The notes under the pieces were generated by a model. It ran no database searches. It saw only the letters and a list, made by a program, of their open reading frames with translations, and had not been told where the DNA came from. Shown here in pieces: positions 16,330 to 20,872 of a stretch of 64,000 nt of DNA. Origin of the DNA: Bacillus sp. ISL-55 (GTDB taxonomy: Bacteria; Bacillota; Bacilli; Bacillales; Cytobacillaceae); NCBI RefSeq assembly GCF_018613155.1, contig NZ_JAGGQU010000013.1, forward strand, positions 129,372 to 193,371. Direction: 5' to 3'. How positions within the stretch are numbered: position 1 is the stretch's first letter; every line of letters starts with the position of its first letter. The translations under genes and the position numbers were made by a program.

Positions 16330-16356
16330 AAAAAACACCTAAAAACAGGTGTTTTA
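16330..16356 (-). terminator. Terminator of the cueP-like gene
   Basis: Hairpin AAAACACCT / AGGTGTTTT with TTTTTT on the minus strand, starting two bases after the TAG/TAA end of the full-length reading frame. Its presence here suggests that the whole frame past the internal UGA is the transcription unit. Confidence 0.9.
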
Positions 16357-16358
16357 GT

Positions 16359-16886
16359 CTACTTTAGCTGCATTGTTGTTATGCAGGTTGCGTCATTCTC
16401 AAAAGTGGATATCTCTGATTCAACAGTCTTGCCGTCATATCCAATCTTTGTTTTGAACTTTTGATCACGTGGAAGCCACAAATCGATGAAACCATTCTGA
16501 TGGGATGTCAATTTCTCATCAACGATCACCTTGCCATCTTCATCCTCAATATATACATCAAACTCTTTTTCGACCAGTTCACCTTGACAACCTGTCAAGC
16601 TATGATTCGTTCAAGGATGGGTTTGATTTTCGTAAGGCGCAATTGAGACGAAGAAGTCTTCTTCCGAAATATCGTAGACTTGCTTGTCCCCTTCACTATC
16701 AGCAATTGTCAGCTCTTGTGAGGTGATGGAAGCATTGTGTCCCTTAATTTTGCCCATGCTGTAATCACTCACCAATTCCTTGATGTCTTGTTGTTGTTTT
16801 TCAGGTTCAGCAGTTTCCTCCCCGCCATTACAGGCAGTTAATAAACCTGCAGCCAAAAACGCAATTCCGAGGATTTTAAATTTCAA
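16359..16886 (-). CDS. cueP: CueP-family copper-binding lipoprotein with one in-frame UGA (candidate Sec)
   Basis: CueP proteins bind copper outside the cytoplasmic membrane. The frame starts at a TTG (16886) behind AAGGGGGTG, encodes a lipoprotein signal ending LLTAC, then the family core (DIKELVSDYSMG, FFVSIAPYENQTHP). At 16611-16613 it meets a TGA and continues in the same frame as TNHSLTGCQGELVEKEFDVY to the normal C-terminus DATCITTMQLK. The TGA falls where relatives, as I recall them, have Cys (HPC...TGC, eight apart); the other two conserved Cys, 68 residues apart, are intact. No frameshift or other damage is seen. A hairpin follows the UGA. The product is either a 175-aa selenoprotein or a copy broken by a single nonsense change. 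Confidence 0.75.
16582..16600 (-). promoter_or_regulatory. Candidate bacterial SECIS hairpin after the in-frame UGA
   Basis: On the minus strand, 11 bases after the UGA, CTTGACA-GGT-TGTCAAG forms a perfect 7-bp stem with a loop beginning with G. The loop starts 18 bases after the UGA. This fits the relaxed bacterial SECIS description (a G at the loop start, loop about 16-37 bases from UGA). It lies inside the coding sequence, as bacterial SECIS elements do. Confidence 0.55.
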
Positions 16887-17056
16887 TCCATTCACCCCCT
16901 TGTCTTTCAAAGTATGATTATATCATAATCACACAGTCCTATCTTAGATGTAAAATATGCATTTTTTATCGAGAAAAAATGCATAAATTGTGACCGATAA
17001 CAAAAGGAGCCAGGCTTACCAGCCCAACTCCTCTTTGTTTTGCTCTGTTAACTCGG

Positions 17057-18821: not shown

Positions 18822-20255
18822 TTATTTTTTTGGAGCTGGCTGTTGTGCCGGGAAGTAACTGTTCACTGCTTTCTCTTTCTTCTTGAAGTTATCTTTTTCG
18901 TCGAAAACAGCCTTCTTCACTTTTTCAATCTCTATTTTAACCTCTTCCAGATTTACACCTTTCTTGGTCAATTCCTCGATGGCAAGATTGATCGCCTCAT
19001 TCGACTCTTCAATCGATACCCTTAATGAATCCATTGCTCCCTGCGGATTATGGAATCCTGCTGCACTCTCAGCTGCAACGATATCCCAGAACCATTGTCC
19101 TTTTCTGATATGCTCCTGAGCTTGCTTGATTTTCTCGTCACTTACGCCAGAAGTAATCATCTTATTTACGTAATAGTGTGATGTAATCGAAATATCCTCA
19201 GCTTTATGAAGTGCTTCCATATGTTTATCCTGGATACCGATTACACGCTCTTTCAGTTCATCCATATCCCTGTTGGTATGGCAGGTTGCGCATGATTGAT
19301 CCATGGTCTTAAGCGGTGAAGTCCACCAGTGTGAGCTGATTTTCTTTTTGCCGTCTACCCTGTCATATGGCATGTGACAGTCTGAACATGTAACTCCTGC
19401 TTCACCATGAGGACCCTCGATATGAGTCTCAAAGTCAGGATGCTGTGCTTTTAGCATTGGCGTCCCTGAAACATTGTGGACCCAGTCCTTCTCAAACCCT
19501 TGCTCCTTAGCAGTAGTTTCATAGTATTCGTACATATTTTCAGGCTCAAAGCCATTAGCCCAAGGATAAGTTACTTCTCCGTTATCTGCAGCAAAATAGT
19601 ACTCTACGTGGCATTGTCCGCAAACATAGTTCCTCATATCATTCTTCGTTGGGTTGGACATGTCGATTCCCTGTGATTCCATTCCCTTGATAAAGCTTGG
19701 ACGGGTTACTCTCAAGTCCATTGTCTGTGGATCATGGCAGTCTGAGCAGCCGATTGGTGAATGGCCCATCGCTTCTGCTTTTGGCCAGATATCTTCATTA
19801 AAATTGCCTCCCCAGTAATCATCCCCCATTTCCTCGATCATGTGAGGAACAGCAGTCGATTTACAAGTTAAGCATGAACCAATTGATTTATCAGTGATAC
19901 GCGCAATCGCCCGGACATCCTCATTCGCATAGATATGGCCGCGATCCTCGTTGTACTCAGTCGCAAAGCCATAGCCGTTAAAAAGGACTGGCAGATAGGG
20001 TTCCTTATCATGGTCGAACTTGCTTCGTTTGACGGAACCGCTGTACTTCGTATCTTCCATTTTTTCATTTTGCTTGTAGCTGTCATATTGCAGCGGGAAA
20101 AGGTCCTTGAAGGCCTCATTGCTGATTTCATCTTTGCTCAGCCCCGTTTTCAGCTCGCTTGCCGAGGTTGCTTCTTCCTCTGAGCCGGAGCATCCAGTAA
20201 TGATGAGCATGACAGCCGCAAGGAGCAAGAGTGCCCAGCGGAAATTTCTAGCCAT
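18822..20255 (-). CDS. nrfA: Cytochrome c nitrite reductase catalytic subunit NrfA (lipoprotein)
   Basis: Pentahaem enzyme reducing nitrite to ammonium with six electrons on the outer face of the membrane. The five haem sites are the active-site CLTCK (128-132) and four CxxCH motifs (170-174, 212-216, 290-294, 322-326). The N-terminus is a lipoprotein signal with lipobox LIITGC (Cys22), so the protein is tethered, as expected without a periplasm. It starts inside the end of nrfH (8-bp overlap) and is the last gene of the ccm-nrf operon. Electrons should come from menaquinol through NrfH. Confidence 0.97.
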   Translation of the reverse strand: MARNFRWALLLLAAVMLIITGCSGSEEEATSASELKTGLSKDEISNEAFKDLFPLQYDSYKQNEKMEDTKYSGSVKRSKFDHDKEPYLPVLFNGYGFATEYNEDRGHIYANEDVRAIARITDKSIGSCLTCKSTAVPHMIEEMGDDYWGGNFNEDIWPKAEAMGHSPIGCSDCHDPQTMDLRVTRPSFIKGMESQGIDMSNPTKNDMRNYVCGQCHVEYYFAADNGEVTYPWANGFEPENMYEYYETTAKEQGFEKDWVHNVSGTPMLKAQHPDFETHIEGPHGEAGVTCSDCHMPYDRVDGKKKISSHWWTSPLKTMDQSCATCHTNRDMDELKERVIGIQDKHMEALHKAEDISITSHYYVNKMITSGVSDEKIKQAQEHIRKGQWFWDIVAAESAAGFHNPQGAMDSLRVSIEESNEAINLAIEELTKKGVNLEEVKIEIEKVKKAVFDEKDNFKKKEKAVNSYFPAQQPAPKK

Positions 20256-20772
20256 TGTTCATCGTACCTCCTTTATTTTCTAAAAGCTCGCCTGGTTTCG
20301 GCGGTTTAAAATAATCCTCTGTCTTGAAGCCCTTGCCGTGCGGCACTGCCTGGTGGCAGCTTGAACAGCTGTCCTTTGCATCATGCGATACATTTTCCAG
20401 TGTGTTTTCATGGCAGCTGATGCAGTTCTCATTGATGACTTCGTCAGAGCTTTCTGTTGCGTGGAGCACCTTCGGGATTTTTGCTTCTCCAAGCGTATTG
20501 TAGTACACGTGGGTCATGCCCGCCTTTGCCTTATACGTGTACTTCTTGACCATGTTTTCATGCGGCAAATGGCAGTCGCCGCAGGCAAGGCCGGCGTGGT
20601 TGGAATCAGAGAACGAGTCATGGACTTCTGTCATGATATGGCAGCTCGAGCAAAATTCAGGTGAATCCGTATAAGCAAGCGTTTTGACAGTGACGACAGA
20701 AACAATGATTCCAGCAAATACGCCAATGAATAACAGCATCTTTTTGTCTATTCCCAGTAGCTTTTTCAGCAT
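20248..20772 (-). CDS. nrfH: Tetrahaem quinol dehydrogenase NrfH (NapC/NirT family)
   Basis: 174-aa membrane-anchored cytochrome c that oxidises menaquinol and feeds NrfA. One N-terminal helix (about 12-32) is followed by four CxxCH motifs (41-45, 64-68, 117-121, 136-140). The start at 20772 is chosen from AGGGAGGTG upstream; a longer frame to 20805 has no binding site. It overlaps nrfA, the usual nrfHA pairing. Membrane anchoring with an outward-facing haem domain is expected. Confidence 0.95.
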   Translation of the reverse strand: MLKKLLGIDKKMLLFIGVFAGIIVSVVTVKTLAYTDSPEFCSSCHIMTEVHDSFSDSNHAGLACGDCHLPHENMVKKYTYKAKAGMTHVYYNTLGEAKIPKVLHATESSDEVINENCISCHENTLENVSHDAKDSCSSCHQAVPHGKGFKTEDYFKPPKPGELLENKGGTMNNG

Positions 20773-20872
20773 CTTTTTCACCTCCCTTAAAGCGGATTCT
20801 CGCAATCTACCAAAAGCTGTTTTGCATGGTCGAAAACAGCTTTATTAAAACACGGATGTGCTTTAACCAAGG

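Follow-up and report, generated by a model that had tools for sequence, protein, structure and literature searches.

A strongly predicted selenocysteine form of the copper protein CueP in Bacillus sp. ISL-55 and related bacilli

We analysed a stretch of 64,000 nt from Bacillus sp. ISL-55 (contig NZ_JAGGQU010000013.1), hereafter called the window, and give a probability of roughly 93% to the reading that one of its genes encodes Sec-CueP, a form of the copper protein CueP with a predicted selenocysteine (Sec) at the first position of its cysteine set. Comparative evidence for Sec-CueP is very strong and makes it a strongly predicted selenoprotein. Incorporation of Sec at the UGA of codon 92 is very probable, and binding of copper by the product, argued from homology, is likely but clearly less secure.

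The gene, the CueP family and a possible copper site

The gene is located on the minus strand and its parts are listed in Table 1. Among its 175 codons there is a single in-frame TGA, where the ORF stops if no read-through occurs; a gene caller halting at this UGA would report a cueP product of 91 residues. The TTG start was picked by eye with the spacing of the ribosome binding site as a guide. A first-pass annotation, made from the letters of the window, had described a frame reading through this TGA with family-typical sequence on both sides, an intact signal peptide and ribosome binding site, and a terminator after the distal end. Each of these parts was recovered: CueP profiles match the read-through product, to which we add the strand, and a lipoprotein-like signal, a ribosome-binding-site-like sequence (both by eye) and a terminator-like hairpin (consensus match) were all found. 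The ribosome-binding-site-like sequence is kept in most of the genus-rank cueP loci inspected, and the protein is probably an exported lipoprotein.

Table 1. Positions of cueP and its parts in the window
Feature	Position (nt)	Strand	Remarks
Sec-CueP coding sequence (predicted)	16359..16886	-	TTG start 16886-16884, 175 codons, TAG stop 16361-16359
In-frame TGA, codon 92	16611..16613	-	predicted selenocysteine, first CueP Cys position
bSECIS-like hairpin CUUGACA-GGU-UGUCAAG	16583..16599	-	loop GGU 16592-16590, 18 nt past UGA
Cys100 codon (TGT)	16587..16589	-	second Cys of the set, within the 3' arm of the hairpin
Cys168 codon	16383..16385	-	third Cys of the set
Lipoprotein-like signal MKFKILGIAFLAAGLLTAC	16830..16886	-	lipid-attachment Cys19; by eye
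Ribosome-binding-site-like AGGGGGTG	16893..16900	-	by eye
Terminator-like stem-loop 3' of the gene	16332..16355	-	consensus match

Profile searches, in which the TGA residue was entered as Cys, placed the read-through protein in the CueP family with PF21172 (E 7.7e-45, 152.4 bits against a cut-off of 27, residues 54-181 of a 183-codon stretch) and NF038094 (E 2.2e-55, 186.4 bits against a cut-off of 60). The narrow model for Salmonella-type CueP metallochaperones, NF038095, stayed below threshold (152.5 bits vs a cut-off of 195). Among solved proteins Salmonella CueP is the best relative (4gqz, E 4.2e-33); the alignment sets the TGA residue opposite its Cys in THPC-FNHSLSGC, with the second Cys 8 residues further on and the third 68 residues after the second. 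The earlier proposals that the TGA replaces the first Cys of a Cys-x7-Cys pair, and that the last Cys follows the second by 68 residues as in Salmonella (numbered C96/C104/C172 by the annotation; C104 is also named in PMC13201067), both hold in this alignment. In an alignment of 15 rows, with Sec counted as Cys, the spacing of U92, C100 and C168 is identical to 4gqz and H90 and H95 are conserved; the invariant columns include T89, H90, P91, the Sec/Cys column 92, H95, G99, C100 and C168. The closest named loci belong to Mesobacillus selenatarsenatis SF-1 (91% protein identity), M. subterraneus and M. boroniphilus, and by this measure Mesobacillus is the most likely genus for the DNA of the window. 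Two further loci with a CueP 88% identical to that of the window carry titles that look wrong, Cytobacillus oceanisediminis 2691 DE0166 (L096) and Chryseobacterium sp. ISL-80 (L097).

Regarding the surroundings of the gene, an MFS-like transporter and a sigma-54-type regulator (named by eye) flank cueP in the genus, and none of the flanking genes is recognisably copper-related. About 2 kb from cueP, at 18822-20805 of the window, there are multihaem cytochrome genes resembling the nitrite reductase genes nrfA/nrfH (by eye, from CxxCH motifs). The palindrome ATGCATTTTTTCTCGATAAAAAATGCAT is located upstream of cueP at 16957-16984 and is also present upstream of most Mesobacillus cueP genes. In this genome the site upstream of cueP is its sole match without mismatch, one other place showing three mismatches, and the palindrome is a possible operator or attenuator.

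CueP of Salmonella is a copper-binding protein whose C-terminal domain carries a cluster of Cys and His, and it can supply copper to Cu/Zn superoxide dismutase, according to the cited parts of PMC7558416; going by that description, Sec92 may lie spatially close to C100 and C168. A metal thiolate has been reported for C104 of the Salmonella protein, and the copper-resistance effect is lost in C104S (relevant passage of PMC13201067). A Cu(II) reductase activity of CueP is mentioned as proposed in PMC8966772. Homology with this protein suggests that the CueP of the window would handle copper outside the cytoplasm, where its selenolate could serve as a copper ligand, a redox partner or both; Sec as a copper ligand is suggested by homology. 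A more specific proposal, to which we give odds somewhat short of even, is a natural and widespread selenolate-copper site, in which Sec92, Cys100, Cys168 and His90/His95 would hold copper on the outside of bacilli, beyond the cytoplasm, selenium would speed or protect a Cu(II)/Cu(I) step, and copper handling would help to keep Sec decoding in their genomes. An alternative would leave the selenoprotein in place and assign its Sec mainly to thiol or peroxide redox chemistry (such as reducing oxidants or Cu(II)) instead of stable copper binding. Uncharacterised selenoproteins are mostly redox proteins, probably, as a passage of PMC13188914 has it, but this protein keeps the three Cys/Sec positions and the two His of Salmonella CueP, the C104 results point to metal binding, and a Cys-containing relative from Lentibacillus (L105) has a copper P-type ATPase-like neighbor (by eye), so that we consider a mainly redox role rather unlikely.

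The hairpin behind the UGA and the selenocysteine machinery

Behind the UGA, starting 11 nt past it, we noticed a hairpin of seven base pairs with the loop GGU that the first-pass annotation does not mention. The comparison covered 165 of the 166 distinct sites, all except the Cys row L072. Every one of the 106 distinct TGA genes has all seven pairs and the loop GGU, whereas only 5 of 59 distinct Cys genes have the seven full pairs and 20 of 59 the GGU. The second stem pair of the TGA copies is U-A in 94 cases and C-G in 12, and is never mixed; among the Cys copies, many rows have a broken or mixed pair at this place. Because of this clean exchange, the codon of Leu+5 (TTG/CTG) is tied to that of Gln+9 (CAA/CAG). 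When the arms were randomly re-paired among the TGA copies, full stems were obtained in a mean of 94.5 and a maximum of 98 of 106. Codon choice follows the same division: Gly+7 is GGT in 106/106 and Cys+8 is TGT in 105/106 TGA copies, compared with 20/59 and 24/59 in Cys copies. The choice of codon is nearly frozen in the TGA copies and free in the Cys copies. The fold energy of the window's hairpin is only modestly better than that of shuffled sequences (z -1.78, with 7 of 200 as good), and the case therefore rests on the comparison and not on energy. In bacterial selenoprotein genes a hairpin is located just past the UGA, carries a G in its apical loop and is conserved by covariation; position, loop G and covariation were all found in Sec-CueP. 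Among the sequence evidence, this comparison is the strongest support for the predicted Sec.

The first-pass annotation had proposed a search of the genome for the Sec machinery, and all of the parts looked for are there. We found a tRNA-Sec (58.3 bits against a cut-off of 47, also reported by ARAGORN as tRNA-SeC(tca)), SelA (E 3e-143), SelB (364.5 bits against a cut-off of 242) and a selD (L034:1249-2340) that adjoins selA in divergent orientation. This selD has an in-frame TGA of its own, within KAGUGCKISPED, and is a probable Sec-SelD, and L212 and L216, both of formate dehydrogenase type, each contain a U-H motif written with an in-frame TGA. SelA, SelB, SelD and tRNA-Sec together with these TGA codons indicate a Sec system in this genome with further likely clients. 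Each of the two formate dehydrogenase-type genes also forms a hairpin whose loop carries a GGU 18 nt past the UGA; the selD hairpin has GAG instead of GGU in the 18-nt register. Directly past tRNA-Sec there is a match to Rfam STnc490 (RF01405; L001:1653-1764, 60.6 bits, gathering cut-off 56), and an ORF near tRNA-Sec (L009:12482-12964) resembles an IS200-type transposase (by eye).

According to the mechanism we propose, the in-frame hairpin with its GGU loop would recruit SelB carrying Sec-tRNA(Sec), and the UGA of codon 92 would be decoded as Sec. Its product would be a CueP of full length that combines a Sec-x7-Cys...Cys set with the conserved H90 and H95.

Co-occurrence of the TGA form with SelA was examined in 193 family-rank genomes and 76 further order-rank genomes with CueP, counting as SelA only matches with E <1e-90, a limit set after a gap had been seen between 7e-99 and 3e-24. 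A TGA copy is found in 117 of the 182 CueP genomes, and 115 of these 117 have a full-length SelA; the two without are drafts, G179 at 81% and G183 at 80% completeness. Among the 65 CueP genomes with no TGA copy, 27 have SelA and 38 have none, so CueP need not use Sec where a Sec system is present. The association has a Fisher p of 3.3e-19 (uncorrected for ancestry), with classes drawn from the counts of internal stops in CueP matches and not from the site DNA of each genome; the TGA class includes G537 (2 TGA, 1 TAA) and the partial G396, and the other class G350 (with a TAG besides the TGA at its second Cys) and the fragments G138, G140 and G141. Within one genus (g134), G459 and G555 have TGA and SelA and G518 has Cys and no SelA; in the CueP tree the G518 gene is not placed beside the other two.

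These results bear on the reading in which the UGA acts as a regulated stop, or a near-cognate tRNA reads through it with no selenium involved, the short product being dominant and the hairpin serving for pausing or regulation. UGA is the leakiest of the stop codons, which would suit such a reading, but TGA CueP co-occurs with SelA, the sister genes read carry Cys and no other residue at the site, and the two formate dehydrogenase-type genes of this genome have the same hairpin register. TGA moreover ends 9 of the 38 window ORFs of at least 200 aa as an ordinary stop, which argues against this reading and also rules out that TGA is recoded as an amino acid genome-wide. A regulated or leaky stop is therefore very improbable.

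Conservation of the TGA codon and exchange of Sec and Cys

CueP was found in 21 of 21 genus-rank genomes and has TGA at the same codon in every one of them; one draft (G001, 87% complete) shows an additional frame break downstream in cueP. At family rank CueP is present in 106 of 193 genomes, 87 of them with an internal TGA, and at order rank in 88 of 397 sampled genomes, where 30 of the 76 not counted before have TGA at the site. A phylum-wide sample yielded CueP in 9 of 398 genomes, with TGA in two, both of the window's genus, and no internal stop in the other seven. Within the order, TGA CueP recurs in numerous genera and in many families. Reading the site codon from DNA in 179 CueP copies, duplicates included, gave 118 TGA, 60 TGC/TGT and 1 further Cys copy, with seven segments lacking the site motif left out (the G350 copy as well as fragments and pieces with a broken frame); the motif demands a His three residues past the site, and these counts are hence no test of that His. 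After removal of duplicates, TGA is present at 106 of 166 sites. The comparison of homologues that the first-pass annotation had called for thus turned out in favor of Sec, with TGA conserved across the genus and in other genera and TGC/TGT in sister genes; the case that it had named as refuting, a TGA private to this strain, did not occur.

Selection was estimated from ungapped stretches of 19 of the 21 genus loci (L018 and L031 were left out; 171 pairs) and gave a dN/dS of 0.159 before the TGA and 0.095 after it; codons past the TGA are under purifying selection. An ordinary CueP gene in decay, whose TGA stems from a nonsense mutation or a sequencing error and whose protein ends at residue 91, would agree with an ORF that stops at the TGA unless read through and with true decay known in the family (the second copy of G350), but TGA at the same codon in 21/21 genus-rank genomes and 118/179 sites, the purifying selection past it and the frozen hairpin leave this reading practically without probability. 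Sequencing error and pseudogene are ruled out by the genus-rank TGA together with dN/dS, and a strain-private substitution by the genus-rank TGA. In the decayed copy of G350 (L175) the Sec/Cys site is Tyr, a TGA takes the place of the second Cys and there is also a TAG; the genome has no SelA match. Regarding copy number, G182 carries three CueP copies (L052, L116, L121), each with one in-frame TGA, and G065 and G224 each carry one copy with TGA and one without. CueP matches were also found in 23 plasmid records, all below 60% identity; 21 of the 23 are labelled CueP family metal-binding protein.

With the site masked, a tree built from 104 Sec and 60 Cys rows of CueP (164 in all) requires 22 label changes, compared with 48.7 for shuffled labels and 0 of 500 shuffles as low; the tree rests on 149 columns and leaves many forks open, and the figure of 22 is rough. 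The starred branches force 7 Sec/Cys changes. This pattern fits repeated exchange of Sec and Cys among the predicted proteins. There are very closely related genes with different site codons, L130 (G183) with Sec and L045 (G184) with Cys, and the Cys copies L045 and L187 (G520) both keep a perfect hairpin; in G520 the SelA match is weak and partial only. Recent changes from Sec to Cys have probably taken place among these genes, and close sister pairs, with G183 and G184 as an example, offer natural experiments on the exchange of Sec and Cys.

Comparison with known proteins

A selenoprotein inventory of May 2026 counts 119 families and subfamilies, and CueP, NF038094 and PF21172 are not among the entries of its Table 1, which cites Haft and Tolstoy 2025 for several families (PMC13188914). 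The word CueP was not found in PMC9312934 or PMC12013277, and a full-text literature search for CueP with selenoprotein or selenocysteine gave a sole match, on hydroxyapatites, with none on Sec-CueP among the matches listed. Within the reach of the literature searched and of that Table 1, this points to Sec-CueP as a selenoprotein family missing from the published inventory. It would add a family found in many bacilli, with a copper-site protein as its Cys-containing relative. Aerobic bacteria rarely keep selenoproteins, as stated in a passage of the inventory (PMC13188914). If these bacilli live as aerobes, as the group does, a common exported selenoprotein would be unexpected there; it would allow a direct test of the role of selenium at a copper site.

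Among known selenoproteins, the CopZ-like (2Fe-2S)-binding proteins (cd10141) and the SO_0444 family Cu/Zn efflux transporters (NF033936) of the same Table 1 (PMC13188914) share with Sec-CueP the combination of Sec and a copper annotation; judged by the listed identifiers, their domains differ. Within this genome, the two formate dehydrogenase-type genes resemble cueP in having an in-frame TGA followed by a hairpin with GGU 18 nt on, and selD in having a TGA followed by a hairpin, though with GAG in the register; the proteins themselves are unrelated to CueP. Salmonella CueP shares with the protein of the window the family profiles PF21172 and NF038094, the Cys spacing of 8 and 68, the His near the first Cys and export. 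Unlike it, the CueP of the window has a predicted Sec codon for the first Cys with a SECIS-like hairpin behind it, has a lipoprotein-like signal (by eye) and does not reach the cut-off of NF038095.
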